IMG/VR virus record: IMGVR_UViG_3300040806_002192
Coordinates: 1-53,922 of that record
DNA length: 53,922 nucleotides
Strand: one strand, 5' to 3'
Origin: a virus
The notes under the pieces: generated by a model
Database searches by the model: none
Told to the model about the DNA's origin: nothing
What the model saw: the letters and a program-made list of their open reading frames with translations, nothing else
Shown: piece by piece, positions 9,080 through 33,533 of the stretch
Numbering within the stretch: position 1 is the first letter of the stretch
Layout of the letters: every line of letters starts with the position of its first letter
Translations under genes and position numbers: made by a program

Positions 9080-10822
9080 TTATCCATCGCAGCTTAAACA
9101 ATCAGGATCCATAGCCGCTGCTGCTATATCTCCCCTTAATACAGATTCTGTACGTGTATAATACAAAGTTTTAATACCACGTTTCCACGCTTCAATATGC
9201 ACCTGATTCAACCATCTAGGCGGTGCTTCTGATGGAAATGCTAGATTTAAACTAACAGACTGGTCTATATAATCTTGTCTTATACCCGCTTGTTTTACTA
9301 GTTCTAATTGATTAATTTCTTTAAATGTTTTAAATACATTTTTTACAGGTTCTCCTTCTTCTTGAGTAAGTCTTCCTCCGTGATCGTAAAACCATCCATT
9401 AAGTTGTTTAATTCCTTGAATGGATCCACCATCTTCCAAAATTTTGTCCCAAGTTTCTTTATTATTGATTCCAACTTTTCTTAATACTTTTTCTAATTCT
9501 TTATTTTTTCTAATAAATGTTCCTTTAGCAGATTGTTCAGTGAACACATTTGCAGCCCATGGCTCAATTCCTGGCGAAACATTACCAGAAAGTTTTGAGT
9601 TCGATACGGTTGGCGCAACAGCTCTTAAATGCGTATTGCGGAAGCCTGTACCGACGCACCAAAGTGGTTCGCCATATGTTTCAGCTAATGCTCTTGAAGC
9701 TCTTTCTGTTTCAATTTTTATTTTGCTAAATATCTCGCGAGTTTTAAATTGAGCTAACAAGCCTTCAAAGGCAATACCGTTTCTTTGTAGTAAACTATGC
9801 CAGCCTAGAACTCCCAGCCCAAGAGCCCGTCCCTTCACAGCTGACCTTACAGAATTTTCGAACCCTCGCATGTTCTTTGCTCTCTGTATGAATTCTTCCA
9901 GGACACCGTCCAGGAACCAAGTAGCATCGTACACTAGATTTGTATTTTTCCATTCGTCGTATTTTTCTAAATTAAGTGATGATAAGCAGCAAACAAAACT
10001 ATGCGATTCATCTGTATGTAGTGTTATTTCACTACATATATTAGTCATGTGCACCTTTAGGCTATTTTTCTTATATGCTTCTGGATTAGACTTGTTCGTG
10101 TTGCCTTTAAAAAGGATATATGGTTCCCCAGTTGCTTTACGTTTTTGGAGTAGCTTCGACCATCTTTGCCTAGCGTCTTGATTTCCCGCTTCAAGTCTTC
10201 GCATAAACTTATCGCCAACGACAACACACTGGTGTAAGTTAAGAGATTGTCTATTGACGTCTCCTTTAGGTTCCCTAATTTCAAGCCAATCGAGGAAGTC
10301 ATCGTGTTCAATATTGATATTAACTGAAGCAGCTCCTCTTCTAACGCTACCTTGGTTGGTTGCGAGTATAGTTGAGTCGTAGATTTTGCAAAAAGGGACA
10401 ACGCCGTCTGAAGTTCCATTACCTGTTATTTTAGCACCAGCGGGACGTATCATATTAATTCCGATACCAACACCCCCGCCGTGTTTTGCTAGTAACATCA
10501 TTTCTAAATTTTTAGCTCCAATATCCTGTATACTATCTGCTACGTCAATACCAAAGCAACTAATAGGTAAACCCCTGTCTGTGCCTGTATTAGACAGCAC
10601 AGGAGAAGCTAAACATAACCAACCCTGCCATATATACTCAAAAAACTTTTCAGCTAATTCTGGCTTGTATAATCGTCTCGCGACTGCGTTGCAGACTCTC
10701 CAGTACGCTTCTTTAGGGGTTTCTCCGTTAAGTAAATATCCCCCGGATATAGTCTTTTTGTAAACTTCTGTGTCTCCCCAGTTTGGATAGTCAACACCTT
10801 TTTTCCATTCATTGTTCCACAT
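9080..10822 (-). CDS. nrdA: Ribonucleoside-diphosphate reductase, large (alpha) subunit, class I
   Basis: 580 residues. The catalytic subunit reduces ribonucleotides to deoxyribonucleotides in the cytoplasm. The active-site loop reads NICSE (N261, C263, E265), matching the class I NxCxE thiyl-radical motif. An early Cys in SCFGI and a later VCC are the candidate redox pair. The C-terminal tail DCLSC (C575, C578) is the swinging arm that relays electrons from thioredoxin or glutaredoxin, and LYYT contains the radical-transfer tyrosines. The protein is short for NrdA (E. coli about 760) and starts close to the catalytic barrel, so the N-terminal ATP-cone is missing and overall activity control by dATP is probably lost. 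Its partner nrdB lies upstream in the same block, with one small membrane-protein gene between. Confidence 0.95.
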   Translation of the reverse strand: MWNNEWKKGVDYPNWGDTEVYKKTISGGYLLNGETPKEAYWRVCNAVARRLYKPELAEKFFEYIWQGWLCLASPVLSNTGTDRGLPISCFGIDVADSIQDIGAKNLEMMLLAKHGGGVGIGINMIRPAGAKITGNGTSDGVVPFCKIYDSTILATNQGSVRRGAASVNINIEHDDFLDWLEIREPKGDVNRQSLNLHQCVVVGDKFMRRLEAGNQDARQRWSKLLQKRKATGEPYILFKGNTNKSNPEAYKKNSLKVHMTNICSEITLHTDESHSFVCCLSSLNLEKYDEWKNTNLVYDATWFLDGVLEEFIQRAKNMRGFENSVRSAVKGRALGLGVLGWHSLLQRNGIAFEGLLAQFKTREIFSKIKIETERASRALAETYGEPLWCVGTGFRNTHLRAVAPTVSNSKLSGNVSPGIEPWAANVFTEQSAKGTFIRKNKELEKVLRKVGINNKETWDKILEDGGSIQGIKQLNGWFYDHGGRLTQEEGEPVKNVFKTFKEINQLELVKQAGIRQDYIDQSVSLNLAFPSEAPPRWLNQVHIEAWKRGIKTLYYTRTESVLRGDIAAAAMDPDCLSCDG

Positions 10823-11257: not shown

Positions 11258-12226
11258 TTACCAAATATCCTCAAAGTCTTCTCCCTCATTCGCTTTGGAA
11301 TAATCAGTCGGGCGAACAGCAAAAAAATCAGTATGAGTATGCCCCCCGGTAAGATGATAGAACCAATCAAGATTTTCTGATGCGCTTTCGTCAAACGCAA
11401 AGTACTCCCCGAGGTCGAAGTAACCAAGTTCTTGCAATTTTTCATTGAGACGTTTTCTAATGAATTGTTTAAGGTCGTAAGCTCTAAGGTTTTCAATGTC
11501 CCCGAGTTCGAACATTTTGTCAATATACTTTTCTTCTGATTCAAGCATTGTTTTTGCTGCTGTAATAACGTCATCTCTACAATCTTCTAGTAAGTTAGGT
11601 CTTTCTTTACACATATGTCTAAATAATTGACAGCCCATCTTACTGTGCAATGATTCGTCTCTAACAGACCATTTCATCTGTTGTCCAATGCCTTTAAGAA
11701 GGTTTCTAAGCTGAAAAGAATAAAGCACAGCAAAAGCGGAATATAAAGATACTCCTTCAGCAAAAGCACTAAATATAGCCAAAGACTTTCCAATTCCCAC
11801 AGGGTCAATACCGTCATAGGCAACAAGGTTTTCGAATCGCTCTGCAGTAGCAGGTTCATGCAAAAATGCTTCAAAGTCTTCAAGCCCTAGTGTTTCGTTT
11901 AAATATGAATATGCTACAGCGTGAATTGTTTCTTGGCTACCAAACATCATAGCCATTTGCTGGATTTCGTGCTTGGGAAACCAATTAACAACTTTTTGTG
12001 TCCAGTAATCAGATACCGCACATTCTGTTTGAGCAAAACCTAAAAGAATATTTCCTACTAAATTTTTTTCAGCACTAGTTAATTTTTCGTTCCAGTCTTT
12101 AACGTCTCCCGACATAGGTATTTCGGTATGTAACCAAAATGCTTGTGCTTGTTTTAACCATCCGTCATTATAGTATTCAGGATATTCAAAAGGTTTATAT
12201 GCTATACGCGGTTCAAATAGACCCAT
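11258..12226 (-). CDS. nrdB: Ribonucleoside-diphosphate reductase, small (beta) subunit, probably class Id-like
   Basis: 322 residues. This ferritin-like subunit generates the radical or oxidised metal centre used by NrdA. All six metal ligands are visible: E68, E99, H102, E157, E191 and H194. A tyrosine (Y106) sits four residues after H102, where the E. coli radical Tyr122 lies. The first ligand is Glu rather than the Asp of E. coli NrdB (same 31-residue spacing to the next ligand). As I recall, an all-Glu set plus this Tyr matches the dimanganese class Id group described from Flavobacterium johnsoniae, which would fit the presumed host lineage. The subclass is an inference. The gene is followed by the zinc-ribbon membrane gene and nrdA. 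Confidence 0.95.
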   Translation of the reverse strand: MGLFEPRIAYKPFEYPEYYNDGWLKQAQAFWLHTEIPMSGDVKDWNEKLTSAEKNLVGNILLGFAQTECAVSDYWTQKVVNWFPKHEIQQMAMMFGSQETIHAVAYSYLNETLGLEDFEAFLHEPATAERFENLVAYDGIDPVGIGKSLAIFSAFAEGVSLYSAFAVLYSFQLRNLLKGIGQQMKWSVRDESLHSKMGCQLFRHMCKERPNLLEDCRDDVITAAKTMLESEEKYIDKMFELGDIENLRAYDLKQFIRKRLNEKLQELGYFDLGEYFAFDESASENLDWFYHLTGGHTHTDFFAVRPTDYSKANEGEDFEDIW

Positions 12227-12734: not shown

Positions 12735-13004
12735 TTAAGCATTTTCATGTGGTGGGTTATCCTCTCTGAATAATGACTCCTCAATGTAAAATCCATATCG
12801 TCCTGCGATTTCGTCAATTGTTCTTGAGTTAATTCGCTTGCTATTTCTTGCATATTTTTTAATATCTTTTTCTAGTTTACGTCTTTTATAATGTAAAGAA
12901 GCTAATTTTTTCTGCTTTCTTTTATTAATTGAATCGTCCTGTCCACTTCTCTCTGATTTTGCGGTTTGTAAAGCGTCTTTCCAATATTGTTTTTTGTCAG
13001 CCAT
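12735..13004 (-). CDS. Small basic protein overlapping the endonuclease gene
   Basis: 89 residues, very Lys/Arg-rich in its first two thirds (helical, KKLASLHYKRRKLEKDIKKY) with an acidic C terminus. The only ATG in frame gives a 103-base overlap with the upstream endonuclease gene, far longer than other overlaps here. Both ends look protein-like, so I keep both genes. Possibly nucleic-acid binding, from charge only. Confidence 0.55.
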   Translation of the reverse strand: MADKKQYWKDALQTAKSERSGQDDSINKRKQKKLASLHYKRRKLEKDIKKYARNSKRINSRTIDEIAGRYGFYIEESLFREDNPPHENA

Positions 13005-13351
13005 AATTTAAATAATTTCCAACGCAAGGGAAAAGACTCATTAGCTCTTCCCTTACATTCTATTATGTAATCTTTTCCAGTAAAGTCAGGTGTATATTTA
13101 ATCCCCAGCACTTTCTTGCTCCCCCTGTTAGTGTAGTCACCTTTTCCATTTGATTGTTTTTCGTAAGATTCATTTTTAAAATCAAAACTTTCGACAAGCT
13201 GGAAAACTTCACCTTCATAATATTCAAATAATTTTTCTTTCTTTAAAGCCATATAAGTATAACGTTCTAAACCTGACGCAAAATTAATACCATCATATGT
13301 TATTTTCTTTGCTGTTACAGGCCCTCGCTTTTTACTTTTTTTTCGTTTCAT
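12902..13351 (-). CDS. PD-(D/E)XK endonuclease (DUF1064 / T7 endonuclease I-like)
   Basis: 149 residues. The motifs SGLER (E29), YTPDF (D89) and IIECKG (E98, K100) reproduce the E...D...ExK metal-binding active site of the PD-(D/E)XK nucleases, arranged as in T7 gp3 endonuclease I and the DUF1064 phage proteins. The N terminus is strongly basic. The C terminus QNQREVDRTIQ resembles the end of those families. A Holliday-junction resolving or host-DNA-degrading role fits its place among recombination and replication genes. The choice between these is not settled by sequence. The gene overlaps its upstream neighbour by 4 bases (ATGA). Confidence 0.8.
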   Translation of the reverse strand: MKRKKSKKRGPVTAKKITYDGINFASGLERYTYMALKKEKLFEYYEGEVFQLVESFDFKNESYEKQSNGKGDYTNRGSKKVLGIKYTPDFTGKDYIIECKGRANESFPLRWKLFKLWLTKNNIGKTLYKPQNQREVDRTIQLIKESRKN

Positions 13352-13662
13352 GTATTATTAGTTGTCCAGGTTTTATCAATATTATATCCCAATTGATCTG
13401 GTGGGCCAGGCTCAGGATATGATGACATAAGTTCTGCATCTACATCAATATCTTTAATATAGCAGTCTTCAATTTCTTCTCGCAAAGACATTCTTGCTTT
13501 TTCAATATAATTAACCGCATCCATTAATTCTTCTTGTAAATGATTAAGCCAGGCATCTAATGGTTGATCGTCATCATTAAGAGTCACGCCATATTTCTTA
13601 AAGCCTACATCAGATCGTTTCTGTATTTTGCTTATTACTTGTTGTATAATTTTATCACGCAT
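13348..13662 (-). CDS. MazG-like/all-alpha NTP pyrophosphohydrolase-like phage protein
   Basis: 104 residues. The segment from KKYG (23-26) through WLNHLQEELMDAVNYIEK (39-56) matches the small all-alpha phage family related to MazG, dUTPase and dCTPase pyrophosphohydrolases. E44, E45 and D48 would be the first half of the Mg2+-binding acidic set. The second half is not clear, so activity is uncertain. It overlaps the fused GIY-YIG/MazG gene by 8 bases and is two genes downstream of the ThyA-family gene, suggesting a nucleotide-pool role. Confidence 0.6.
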   Translation of the reverse strand: MRDKIIQQVISKIQKRSDVGFKKYGVTLNDDDQPLDAWLNHLQEELMDAVNYIEKARMSLREEIEDCYIKDIDVDAELMSSYPEPGPPDQLGYNIDKTWTTNNT

Positions 13663-14446: not shown

Positions 14447-14565
14447 TTCTTTTTTAATGATTTAATTATATTTAAACTTTCTTCGCTAAGAAATTGACCC
14501 ATATAGTTGTTTTTTTCAAACCAGTATTTAAATTCCGACGTTGAGTTTTGCTTTGATTGGCTCAT
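14431..14565 (-). CDS. Hypothetical 44-residue protein between the ThyA-family and GIY-YIG/MazG genes
   Basis: It begins MSQSKQNSTSEFKYWFEKNN and ends in a Lys/Trp-rich tail. It overlaps the 3' end of the ThyA-family gene by 38 bases and the next gene by 16 bases, exactly bridging the gap. The composition is protein-like and helical. No family recognised. Confidence 0.5.
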   Translation of the reverse strand: MSQSKQNSTSEFKYWFEKNNYMGQFLSEESLNIIKSLKKKWKQQ

Positions 14566-15358
14566 GAGGATTATAATCTTTTAAATGAATCATATTATGT
14601 GTTGGTATCATTATGAAATTTCCAGCACCCTGTTCAATACGTAGTCCGTAGTCAATTTCCACGTTAGGCAATTCCCTAAAATCACGAGATAATTGCTTTC
14701 TAGCTTGGTCGATATGGTTGTTGTAAAGATGACAATCACCAAGTGAAGCAGTAAGCCTCCCAGGTTTATAACCCGATCCTTTTGCCAACATAAGTAAAAG
14801 TAAACCATACATGGCAATATCATAAGGCAAACCAAGAAAAACATCAACGGATCGCTGATTCCATAATAAGTCAAGTTTTCCATTATTTATATATATTTGA
14901 AAACCATAATGACAAGGAGGAAGTGCCATGTCATCCACATCATTGGGATTCCATAAGCTTGCCATAATACGCCTCGATGTTGGCTCCTGTTTAATTTGCT
15001 TGAGTATTTTTTCAAGCTGATCAACACCATTAAAGTTCCTAAGCTGGCGCCCATAAACAGGACCAAGCGTACCATCAGTTCTACCTGACCGCTCATAATC
15101 AGCATTCCAGTAAGTAAGGCCATTATTGTTAAGGAAAGCAATGTCAGTACGTCCCTGTAAAATCCATAATAATTCTGTAACCGCATGTTTAAAAAATATT
15201 TTTTTAGTAGTTAGCAATGGAAACCCAAGCTCCATATCATGTCTAAGCATTCTTCCAAAGACAGATTGCGTCCCAGTTTTTGTTCTATCCTCTTTTTGTG
15301 CTCCGCCGTGGAGTACTCCTGATAATAGTCCTCTGTATTCATCTTGTACGTTTATCAT
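14528..15358 (-). CDS. Thymidylate-synthase-family enzyme, probably dCMP (hydroxy)methylase
   Basis: 276 residues with the full ThyA fold: ELLWILQGRTD (62-72), SRRI (128-131), catalytic C149 in LPPCH, QRSVD (168-172), and HLY (H210/Y212). The spacing C149 to H210 is the same 61 residues as C146 to H207 in E. coli ThyA. The key position equivalent to E. coli Asn177, which selects dUMP, is Asp180 (LPYDIAMY). Asp at this site is the hallmark of T4 dCMP hydroxymethylase (Asp179). The L. casei N229D mutant of thymidylate synthase is known to methylate dCMP. The likely reaction is therefore methylene-tetrahydrofolate-dependent 5-hydroxymethylation or methylation of dCMP, giving modified cytosine for phage DNA. 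MazG-like genes lie just downstream. No hydroxymethyl-dCMP kinase is seen in this window. Ordinary TS activity cannot be excluded. Confidence 0.9.
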   Translation of the reverse strand: MINVQDEYRGLLSGVLHGGAQKEDRTKTGTQSVFGRMLRHDMELGFPLLTTKKIFFKHAVTELLWILQGRTDIAFLNNNGLTYWNADYERSGRTDGTLGPVYGRQLRNFNGVDQLEKILKQIKQEPTSRRIMASLWNPNDVDDMALPPCHYGFQIYINNGKLDLLWNQRSVDVFLGLPYDIAMYGLLLLMLAKGSGYKPGRLTASLGDCHLYNNHIDQARKQLSRDFRELPNVEIDYGLRIEQGAGNFIMIPTHNMIHLKDYNPHEPIKAKLNVGI

Positions 15359-15605
15359 AATAATATTTACACATTTCGTAATAGCTAGGCCATATGGTAT
15401 TTTTGTCGTATATATGTGGTGCTATATTAGCTTTTTCACCTTTTATATATGGCCCAATATTTATACCAATCTTCCATTTACCAATTTCACCGTTTATACC
15501 TAAAGGCGATATTCTTATGTTGTTTCTAACACAGTAATCACGCGCTTTGGTTTCTTCGATAGTAGGATTATATGCTGGCATCCAGTTTTCTTTTTTCTTA
15601 GCCAT
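15339..15605 (-). CDS. Hypothetical 88-residue protein
   Basis: A compact, basic, aromatic-rich product (MAKKKENWMPAYNP at the start) with several Gly/Ile/Pro turns and no membrane segment. It overlaps the ThyA-family gene start by 20 bases and the stop of the primase-helicase gene by one base, so it is co-translated with both. No family recognised. Confidence 0.65.
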   Translation of the reverse strand: MAKKKENWMPAYNPTIEETKARDYCVRNNIRISPLGINGEIGKWKIGINIGPYIKGEKANIAPHIYDKNTIWPSYYEMCKYYYDKRTR

Positions 15606-17308
15606 TATTCCCAGGGCATTGATTCGTTACTAAAGGTAGTTAAAGGCATATAATCTCCTGAAGCATGATTCCATTTAAAATGTGCTTCCGCTTGATTTTC
15701 TCCTAAGTTTTGAAATTTTACTTTAAGTACTTTGACTTTCACTGAATTATTAGTATAGTCTCTATGTACTAGTAACCCGTGATAAGACGCATCATACCAT
15801 TCTCCCCCTCCTTTGATATTATACATAGTGGGTTCGTCCATAGTACCATCGTCTTTTTTGTACATTTTAGTTGGGTGTGCTACAACAACCACTAGAACGT
15901 CATACTTTTTTGCAAAAGCTTCTATTCTAGCTAAATATTCCATTGTTGCGTCTGGTATAGACATATCAGAAGCACCTTTCATTTTAACTTTATTGTAAGG
16001 ATCAATTACTAAACATTTAATGCCTTTTCTTTTAACTAATTCCGCACCTTTTTTAAGAACTGTATCTAAGTCATATCGTTCCGCTTCTATAAAATAAAAA
16101 TTATCATTTACAACTTCAAAGCAACGATTCCACTTTTCAGAGCCTAAATCGCTTTCTTTAGGCATCCAACCGCCAATCTTTCTAATTAATTTATGCGCAT
16201 GTAAAAACGTGGGTTTATTTTCCGGTGAAGCAAAAGCTGTTTTCCAACCATATTTCATTTGGTAACCCACAGCCATTCGATCAACAAAATCAGACTTGCC
16301 AGAGCTAGGCACACCTGTAACGGTGATGAATTGTCCTGTGTAAGTACTGAATATGCTATCAAAGTTATCAAGACCGATTTGATACCCAGGTTTAAAACCT
16401 TCATAAATAAATTCTTCAAGTTCTTCATTTATATCTCCTACTGTTACAACGTTCTCTAAAGGAACGGGTTGTGCATTATGTATAGCATCGCGAACAGCGT
16501 TCCTACCATTAGCAATAATAAGCTCATTAGCATCTTTATACTCTCCGAAACTTGCCAGCCAGCATACCTCCGCCCCAAAGCGACGTATAAGTTCTTGTTG
16601 TAAATTTTGACCAGCTTCATCAGAGTCCGTAGCGAGTATGATTTTTGATTTATTTTCAAAATACTCAATACAGTTATCAAGGTAATCAAGATTAAGCCGG
16701 TTAAGTGTAGCACCATTTGGTACGGAAACAACATTATGTATGCCAGCTTCATATAAAGATAAAGCATCCATTTCACCTTCCACAATAACGCACCAGTCGT
16801 GGCCAACAATATTATCGAGATTATAAAAGATTTTTTCGGCGTCCTTAACAAGTTTGAAATTTTTCCTACCATCTCTATATTTTATATTTATTAATTCTTT
16901 ATTTATAAAATAATTAAATTGGATTGTATTTTCATTCTTTCCCGTTTGAGGCATCCATTCTATACCTTCAGATACTTTTAAATGTTTAAGGGTAGATTGT
17001 GATATTCCTCTACCCTCAAACCATTTAATTGCTTTGTCAGACAGATTAGTAGTGTTTTTCCATTCAGGTCTAACATAAACTTTATCGCTGCCGCCTTTTC
17101 TTTTAAAGGTATGCAATTGAAATACTTCATCGCAATTCATACAAGTACCGAGACCACGTTCCCAATCATACATAGCGCATTTTGCCTTACGATTTTCAGG
17201 TTTCCTATCATGTGAACATTTAGGGCATACACCTTCCTTCTTGCCAACTTCAAGGTCATATTGATTGAACTGGTCAATCGTAAATCCATTGATCTCTGTT
17301 GTATTCAT
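15605..17308 (-). CDS. T7 gp4-type DNA primase-helicase
   Basis: 567 residues. An N-terminal zinc-binding primase domain (C28/C31 and C56/C59) is followed by a TOPRIM domain with EGE at 177-179 and ATDSDEAG at 226-233, then a DnaB/RecA-like hexameric helicase with Walker A GVPSSGKS (332-339) and Walker B LVIDP (D436). The length equals that of T7 gp4 (566). It unwinds DNA and makes primers at the fork. It is the central replication gene of this leftward block, and SSB-like, exonuclease and annealing genes lie upstream. The start follows a stop codon directly (TAAATG), without a Shine-Dalgarno sequence. Confidence 0.95.
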   Translation of the reverse strand: MNTTEINGFTIDQFNQYDLEVGKKEGVCPKCSHDRKPENRKAKCAMYDWERGLGTCMNCDEVFQLHTFKRKGGSDKVYVRPEWKNTTNLSDKAIKWFEGRGISQSTLKHLKVSEGIEWMPQTGKNENTIQFNYFINKELINIKYRDGRKNFKLVKDAEKIFYNLDNIVGHDWCVIVEGEMDALSLYEAGIHNVVSVPNGATLNRLNLDYLDNCIEYFENKSKIILATDSDEAGQNLQQELIRRFGAEVCWLASFGEYKDANELIIANGRNAVRDAIHNAQPVPLENVVTVGDINEELEEFIYEGFKPGYQIGLDNFDSIFSTYTGQFITVTGVPSSGKSDFVDRMAVGYQMKYGWKTAFASPENKPTFLHAHKLIRKIGGWMPKESDLGSEKWNRCFEVVNDNFYFIEAERYDLDTVLKKGAELVKRKGIKCLVIDPYNKVKMKGASDMSIPDATMEYLARIEAFAKKYDVLVVVVAHPTKMYKKDDGTMDEPTMYNIKGGGEWYDASYHGLLVHRDYTNNSVKVKVLKVKFQNLGENQAEAHFKWNHASGDYMPLTTFSNESMPWE

Positions 17309-31934: not shown

Positions 31935-33533
31935 ATGGCAATACAATTCGGTTCGCCTAAAATAGTTAAAGAACTAAGCTTTAAAGATGAAGCTAAGAAA
32001 AAACTTATTAAAGGCATTGATAAATTAGCGGAAGCTGTAGGCAGCACACTAGGAGCTTCCGGGAGGACAGTAGTACTTGAAGATGATTTTGGTAACCCGC
32101 ATGTTACAAAAGATGGGGTTACTGTTGCAAATTATGTTAATTTAGAAGATCCTGTTGAAAACTTAGGCGTTACTATGTTAAAGCAAGCGTCTCGCCAAAC
32201 AGCATCTAAAGCAGGAGATGGTACTACAACCTCAACAGTGCTTGCGCAAGCTATTATTCATAATTACTTTAAACAAAACGGTGAAGAATATTCATTTCGT
32301 GATGTTAAAAGCGGTATTATGGCTTTTGCGAAACATACGTTAAAACAATTGGAAAAAAGAAGTGTTTCCGTTGATGATAAAAGATTAAACCAAGTCTCAA
32401 GAATATCAGCCAATAATGACACTGAGCTTGGTGACTTTATAGCAGAAGCATTTAAATCAGCGGGAGATAACGGAGTAGTTACCATGGAGACATCTCCAAC
32501 AAACGAAACGTATATAGATGTAGTAGATGGAACACATATTAATGCTACATCAAAAAGTATACACTTCTATACTAATAGAGAAAAAGAAATAGGCGAGCTA
32601 GAGAAGCCGCTTATATTTCTATGTGCTTCTGAAGTTACAAATATTAGAAGAATACAAACAATATTAGAGCACGCGATTAAGTCCAATAGATCGTTACTGC
32701 TCATTGCCCCTTGCGAACAGCAGGTAGTGTCAGCTTTAGCAATGAATCACGTAAAGGGCAATATTAAGTGTAATATCATAGATCCTCCGTCGTTTGGGCT
32801 GAAACGTAAGGATATATTAGATGATATTGCCCTTCTAACGGGTGCTACTGTTATTGATGAAAGTCTAGGCGACTCTCTAGATAATATCACCCCAGAAGTG
32901 TTAGGACAGGCCGATAAGGCTATCATAGATAATGATGGTACTACTCTTGCTATTAAAGAGGTATCAAAAGAAGTTACAGAACGCGTTGATTATTTAAAAG
33001 CGCAGCTAGATGAAGAAGATCACCATGTGATGCGACCACATATTGAAAACCGCTTGGCTATATTATCCGGAGGTGTTTCTATAGTATATGTTGGTGGCGA
33101 TACAGATGTTGAGGTTTCAGAGAAAAAAGATCGCGTCGACGATGCTATACACGCTGTGCGTGCTGCAAAAAAAGAAGGTATACTACCAGGAGGTGGTTCA
33201 GCTTTGGCTTTTGTTGCTGGTGCGGATTGGGAAATGAAACTAAAGCCGGGTGAGCTTGTAGGTGTTAATATATTGAAAAGTTCTTTATATGCACCTTTTT
33301 TACTTATATTAAGTAACGCAGGATTAGATATATCAAACTATCCTAAACTAGATGGATGGGGTAAAGGTATTGATGTTACAGATGGTAAAATTAAAGACAT
33401 GCGTAAAGCTGGAATTATAGATCCATTATTAGTAACTAAGTCTGCTCTTCAAAACGCTATATCTGTAGCTACTACGATTCTTTCAACTGATTGTGTAATT
33501 TCAAATGTACGAGAAGGTGAAAGCAATAGGTAG
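31935..33533 (+). CDS. groEL: GroEL-type chaperonin (HSP60)
   Basis: 532 residues. The ATP-binding motif GDGTTT (94-99), KDGVTVA (59-65) and the catalytic D403 in RVDDAIHAVRAA, followed by EGILPGGGSAL, are all present in order, so ATPase activity is expected. The middle apical domain is divergent, and the C-terminal GGM tail of bacterial GroEL is absent (ends VREGESNR). The leader is AATTAAATTAAATGG without Shine-Dalgarno. It overlaps a groES gene by 29 bases. A phage-owned chaperonin probably folds capsid, fibre or other large phage proteins. Confidence 0.96.
   Translation: MAIQFGSPKIVKELSFKDEAKKKLIKGIDKLAEAVGSTLGASGRTVVLEDDFGNPHVTKDGVTVANYVNLEDPVENLGVTMLKQASRQTASKAGDGTTTSTVLAQAIIHNYFKQNGEEYSFRDVKSGIMAFAKHTLKQLEKRSVSVDDKRLNQVSRISANNDTELGDFIAEAFKSAGDNGVVTMETSPTNETYIDVVDGTHINATSKSIHFYTNREKEIGELEKPLIFLCASEVTNIRRIQTILEHAIKSNRSLLLIAPCEQQVVSALAMNHVKGNIKCNIIDPPSFGLKRKDILDDIALLTGATVIDESLGDSLDNITPEVLGQADKAIIDNDGTTLAIKEVSKEVTERVDYLKAQLDEEDHHVMRPHIENRLAILSGGVSIVYVGGDTDVEVSEKKDRVDDAIHAVRAAKKEGILPGGGSALAFVAGADWEMKLKPGELVGVNILKSSLYAPFLLILSNAGLDISNYPKLDGWGKGIDVTDGKIKDMRKAGIIDPLLVTKSALQNAISVATTILSTDCVISNVREGESNR

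Follow-up and report, generated by a model that had tools for sequence, protein, structure and literature searches.

A MazG-paired thymidylate synthase homolog with a natural Asn-to-Asp switch is a proposed source of 5-methylcytosine in marine phage DNA

The window, by which we mean the whole stretch of DNA analyzed here (a 53,922-base virus record, GC 34%), derives from a marine bacterial virus and encodes a ThyA-family enzyme that we propose evolved from thymidylate synthase (TS) through replacement of Asn177 with aspartate. The explanation we favor, and consider likely as a whole, is that this enzyme is a dCMP C5-methyltransferase that works with an adjacent MazG-type enzyme to generate phage DNA containing 5-methylcytosine (5mC). 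The MazG-type enzyme would convert dCTP to dCMP, which would lower the level of competing normal dCTP. The ThyA-family enzyme would then form a bond between its Cys149 and C6 of dCMP while Asp180 orients and protonates N3, and would transfer the methylene of CH2-tetrahydrofolate and then a hydride, which would yield 5-methyl-dCMP and dihydrofolate. Kinases, presumably those of the host, would convert 5-methyl-dCMP to 5-methyl-dCTP, which the polymerase would insert in place of dCTP, so that the phage DNA would carry 5mC in every sequence context and resist restriction enzymes. A search of these phages for a dNMP kinase of the T4 gp1 type found none, which counts against this explanation and means that this step would require a host kinase or an unrecognized one.

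A ThyA-family protein with aspartate at position 177

The gene lies within a strongly conserved order (primase-helicase, 88-aa protein, ThyA, MazG, small protein, DUF1064, NrdB, NrdA), for which the window features are listed below, with counts referring to the 128 loci of the wider window-type clade.

15605 to 17308, minus strand: TOPRIM primase-helicase, the upstream anchor of the enzyme slot
15339 to 15605, minus strand: 88-aa protein between primase and ThyA, in 122/128 loci, with a 20-base overlap with the ThyA start
14528 to 15358, minus strand: ThyA-family enzyme, proposed dCMP C5-methyltransferase, with Asp180 at the position of E. coli Asn177
14912 to 14923, minus strand: Leu146-Pro-Pro-Cys149, the catalytic Cys with a TS-type Leu at -3, where hydroxymethylases have Asp/Glu (alignment; PMC6400193)
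14819 to 14821, minus strand: codon of Asp180 (E. coli Asn177, T4 gp42 Asp179), the pyrimidine specificity switch (alignment; PMC8670742, PMC6400193, PMC5175136)
13655 to 14446, minus strand: T5orf172 (GIY-YIG-like) and MazG-type pyrophosphohydrolase, proposed to supply dCMP from dCTP
13348 to 13662, minus strand: small conserved protein downstream of MazG, in 119/128 loci, MazG-like by eye only
12902 to 13351, minus strand: DUF1064/Holliday-junction-resolvase-like protein, in 122/128 loci
11258 to 12226, minus strand: NrdB, small subunit of class Ia ribonucleotide reductase
9080 to 10822, minus strand: NrdA, large subunit of class Ia ribonucleotide reductase

The window also encodes a terminase, a portal protein, an exonuclease, Erf and GroEL; the GroEL gene (31935-33533) has a counterpart in 30/30 sibling genomes examined. 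The terminases closest to that of the window are those of the Manatee Spring podovirus MW202828 and of phages that infect Flavobacterium and Cellulophaga, and Shine-Dalgarno sequences are missing before the gene starts, which together fit a Bacteroidota host. Related records extend to 60-70 kb, which suggests that the window is probably short by several kilobases. We discarded a 2OG-Fe(II) oxygenase (PF13759, 29973-30542) as a candidate TET-like partner because it sits beside tail genes and is missing from 29 sibling genomes.

The ThyA-family reading frame is intact, starts with ATG and encodes 276 aa. Its product matches Pfam Thymidylat_synt (9e-88) and scores over the cut-off of NCBIfam thym_sym (TIGR03284), which would lead to automatic naming as a thymidylate synthase, as the first-pass annotation had predicted. 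An AlphaFold model (pLDDT 90) has canonical thymidylate synthases as its top PDB fold matches. The protein contains E62, W84, Y102, C149, H150, R169, S170, D172, H210 and Y212, which include the equivalents of Glu58, Trp80, Tyr94, Cys146, Arg166, Ser167, Asp169, His207 and Tyr209 (E. coli numbering, used below for the family), but Asn177, which recognizes uracil, is replaced by Asp180. The first-pass reading of a ThyA fold with C149, an RS(V)D motif, H210/Y212 and Asp180 for Asn177 thus holds on every point that we checked, and alignment with dCMP hydroxymethylases and TS places the aspartate at T4 Asp179, as had been claimed. Identity of the protein to synthases of phages and cells is approximately 45%; among the phage isolates of the collection searched, none exceeded this level and none represents the exact lineage of the window.

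Aspartate occupies position 177 in 80/80 viral relatives of the window protein (61-100% identity) and in each of the 128 loci that make up the wider clade, and this conservation excludes an error of sequencing or assembly as the source of Asp180. Asn177 is present in 80/80 cellular relatives. In trees of 289 viral TS-family proteins, the window-type proteins form one clade (SH-aLRT of 100 in a quick tree and 100/100 in a careful tree) that is nested among Asn-type phage synthases (98 and 89/93, respectively), whereas T4 gp42 and the DLP4/Xp12-type protein branch elsewhere. Changes common to the clade are Asp177, Tyr79, Tyr176, Met180 and loss of Trp83. A second Asp-type clade carries Tyr147, and a single origin of the two clades is not rejected by the AU test (p 0.06), so we do not claim that they arose independently. 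On a 171-kb contig (L161), a T4-like td gene at approximately 144748-145602 that encodes Asp177 is the only PF00303 gene of the record and is possibly another independent dCMP-type switch.

The Asn177-to-Asp change is known to convert a dUMP-specific TS into a dCMP methylase, and it is a mark of the TS genes carried by contigs with modified cytosine (PMC8670742). The engineered variants L. casei TS N229D and E. coli TS N177D, cited there as dCMP methylases, resemble the window enzyme in being canonical synthases in which only the pyrimidine-specificity Asn is changed and the other catalytic residues are kept. The window enzyme differs from them in that it is natural, fixed across a clade and accompanied by a MazG partner, and in that its clade adds Tyr79, Tyr176 and Met180 and lacks Trp83.

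Gene pairing, slot exchange and the substrate

Local searches detected MazG within 3 kb of the ThyA-family gene in 127/128 window-type and 25/27 Tyr147-type loci and in 0/119 Asn-type loci. Whole-record searches with the independent Pfam model PF01503 gave 39/40 Asp-type versus 4/27 Asn-type records, and in the single Asp-type record without a match the ThyA gene lies at the contig end. Four Asp177 synthases of another group (L132, L143, L170 and L202; approximately 32% identity to the window protein) are also directly followed by a small MazG. The window MazG protein exceeds the cut-offs of both PF03819 and PF01503, and its fold matches are MazG, HisE and DCTPP1, with weak E-values and high probability, which do not discriminate a dCTPase from other pyrophosphohydrolases. 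MetaGPA independently reported PF01503 together with TS domains, in many cases specifically on contigs with modified cytosine (PMC8670742). We propose that the window MazG protein acts on dCTP. Its N-terminal T5orf172/GIY-YIG-like domain is kept as a fusion throughout the lineage; the 88-aa protein (15339-15605) occurs in Tyr147-type loci too.

The strongest evidence for dCMP as the substrate is exchange at the slot between primase and MazG. Searching viral contigs with the neighboring primase-helicase yielded 80 loci, in all 76 readable ones of which the slot holds an Asp177 enzyme: 39 of the window type, five of the Tyr147 type and 32 of a short gp42 type (approximately 22% identity to the window protein). 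The gp42-type proteins of these sister phages possess Cys148, Thr149, Asp145, Ser94 and Tyr96 (33/33) and Asp179 (32/32 readable), residues that identify them as true gp42-type dCMP hydroxymethylases. Terminase, portal, GroEL, primase and MazG are common to the window-, Tyr147- and gp42-type phages, which makes them one lineage that swaps its dCMP-modifying enzyme. A search for hypermodification genes that would set gp42-type phages apart from window-type ones found none.

We also surveyed these records for other enzymes of pyrimidine metabolism. In each of the 40 Asp-type records, PF00303 is represented by a single gene and ThyX is absent; dCMP deaminase was found in 0/40 Asp-type versus 5/27 Asn-type records and DHFR in 0/40 versus 7/27, and cytosine-5 DNA methylase in 0/39 records of the window, Tyr147 and gp42 types. 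The earlier proposal that the enzyme acts on dCMP rather than dUMP therefore gains strong support from the gp42 slot exchange, the near-exclusive MazG pairing and the fact that sibling genomes encode neither an Asn-type synthase nor ThyX nor dCMP deaminase, and on these genomic patterns we regard dCMP as very probably the substrate.

Two alternatives would leave the phage DNA unmodified or the enzyme ordinary. The protein could be a thymidylate synthase, possibly of dual specificity, that tolerates Asp180 and still makes dTMP for an AT-rich phage, which would agree with its approximately 45% identity to known synthases and its full catalytic set. However, the fixation of Asp across the clade, the complete lack of Asn-type enzymes in the slot (0/76 readable) and the exclusive pairing with MazG argue against this possibility, which we consider very improbable. 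Slightly more improbable still is an alternative route to dTMP, in which dCMP would be methylated and the 5-methyl-dCMP then deaminated by a host deaminase. This route agrees with dCMP as the substrate and with MazG as its supplier, and dCMP deaminases are generally known to accept 5-methyl-dCMP as a substrate, but none of the 40 records encodes a phage dCMP deaminase, and the gp42-type stand-ins would yield hydroxymethyl-dUMP.

Methyl or hydroxymethyl product

The first-pass annotation had left the product as either 5-hydroxymethyl- or 5-methyl-dCMP, and the methyl product is now favored because the hydroxymethylase signature is missing. That signature comprises Asp/Glu at -3 from the catalytic Cys, Ser/Thr at the position of T4 Ser94 and absence of the C-terminal tail (PMC6400193). 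The window protein instead has Leu146 at -3 (the position of T4 Asp145), where Leu is found in 137/137 His147/Asp177 proteins, and Val101 at the Ser94 position, and the C-terminal tail over the folate is present in 129/129 window-clade proteins. Leu143, Trp80, Val93 and the tail are retained in the clade, and Leu, Val and tail constitute the synthase set for hydride transfer, which favors 5-methyl-dCMP over 5-hydroxymethyl-dCMP. Given dCMP as the substrate, these residues suggest that a methyl product is quite probable.

A dCMP hydroxymethylase would add water rather than hydride to the methylene intermediate, which would give 5-hydroxymethyl-dCMP and 5hmC DNA as in T4. Consistent with this alternative, the slot is common to true gp42-type hydroxymethylases of sister phages, and the 40 Asp-type records have no phage DHFR, which would be expected of a reaction that releases tetrahydrofolate, although DHFR could come from the host. 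Furthermore, loss of Trp83 (129/129 window-clade proteins, and also 72/124 Asn-type synthases) and a two-residue C-terminal extension (80/129 window-clade proteins) could admit water and thereby lead to a hydroxymethyl product. Against it stand the residues just described, including the -3 position, at which the D145N substitution abolishes activity of the T4 enzyme (PMC6400193), and we consider a hydroxymethylase unlikely. T4 gp42 itself shares with the window enzyme the TS fold, the Asp179 equivalent and, in the window lineage, the same slot beside a nucleotide pyrophosphohydrolase, but the window protein is only approximately 22% identical, lacks Asp145 and Ser94 and has Leu, Val and the C-terminal tail. 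By its sequence, which departs from all three defining features, the window enzyme falls outside the gp42 family.

For the 5-methyl-dCMP reading, a close known phage parallel is Xp12, which is related to phage DLP4 and has all its C replaced by 5mC (PMC9206674). In DLP4, which we used as the Xp12-type comparison genome, an Asp177 TS-family gene lies beside a PF01503 pyrophosphohydrolase gene, an arrangement that the window shares along with the proposed 5mC product. In contrast, the DLP4-type proteins have Pro147 and Asn143, lack the TS tail, are distant in the tree and are accompanied by DHFR and dCMP deaminase, so the window enzyme matches this type in Asp177 and gene adjacency and not in sequence features. 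The Asn177-to-Asp synthases of MetaGPA show the same residue switch and co-occurrence with PRA-PH/MazG (PMC8670742). In that study, modified contigs differ from unmodified ones at position 177 as well as at position 147, the latter also being changed in the reported set, whereas the window clade retains His147, which counts against our favored explanation. The MazZ-PurZ pair of cyanophage S-2L (PMC8342488) offers a likeness in logic, as a MazG-type enzyme supplies a monophosphate to a base-modifying enzyme encoded alongside, but it operates in a purine pathway (dGMP to 2-aminoadenine) with an unrelated modifying enzyme.

Restriction palindromes and implications

We examined tetranucleotide palindromes in each genome, with an observed/expected ratio below 0.4 as the threshold for strong avoidance; this per-genome test replaced pooled counts, which were misleading. 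Strongly avoided palindromes occurred in 1/30 Asp-type or gp42-type genomes, with none in the window, versus 12/14 controls, made up of Asn-type phages (8/10) and Bacteroidota phages that lack such an enzyme (4/4). The contrast (Fisher 5e-8) had the same outcome at equal 40-kb lengths, but the 30 genomes share ancestry, so that their counts are not independent, the hosts of the controls differ, and the outcome would depend on the restriction systems of the hosts. The relative MW202828 (L083), one of these Bacteroidota controls, which lacks MazG and encodes ThyX in place of ThyA, contains zero GATC and zero CCGG sites in 50 kb, a striking case of avoidance. The lack of avoidance in Asp-type phages matches the prediction of genome-wide cytosine protection and counts against both an ordinary synthase and the alternative dTMP route. 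It lends indirect support to the earlier suggestion that modified cytosine serves against restriction, and the modification probably hides viral DNA from bacterial restriction enzymes.

That the Asn177-to-Asp change marks cytosine-modifying synthases is already published (PMC8670742). What is new here is a clade that retains His147, its fixed MazG cassette, the exchange with hydroxymethylases in the same slot and the palindrome evidence. We lean toward the view that a large lineage of marine phages makes 5mC before replication through a natural Asn177-to-Asp TS, in a cassette that swaps methylases and gp42-type hydroxymethylases. Few phages (Xp12 and probably those related to it) are documented to build 5mC into the whole genome from modified nucleotides, and in the literature accessible to our search we found no gene shown by assay to be responsible for it. 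The window clade is a well-defined candidate for this role and would be a natural counterpart of the textbook one-residue specificity switch, and its slot exchange with true hydroxymethylases is genetic evidence of a rare kind for the identity of the substrate. Asp177 together with an adjacent MazG would furthermore allow phages with modified cytosine to be predicted from sequence alone, a prediction that is directly testable.
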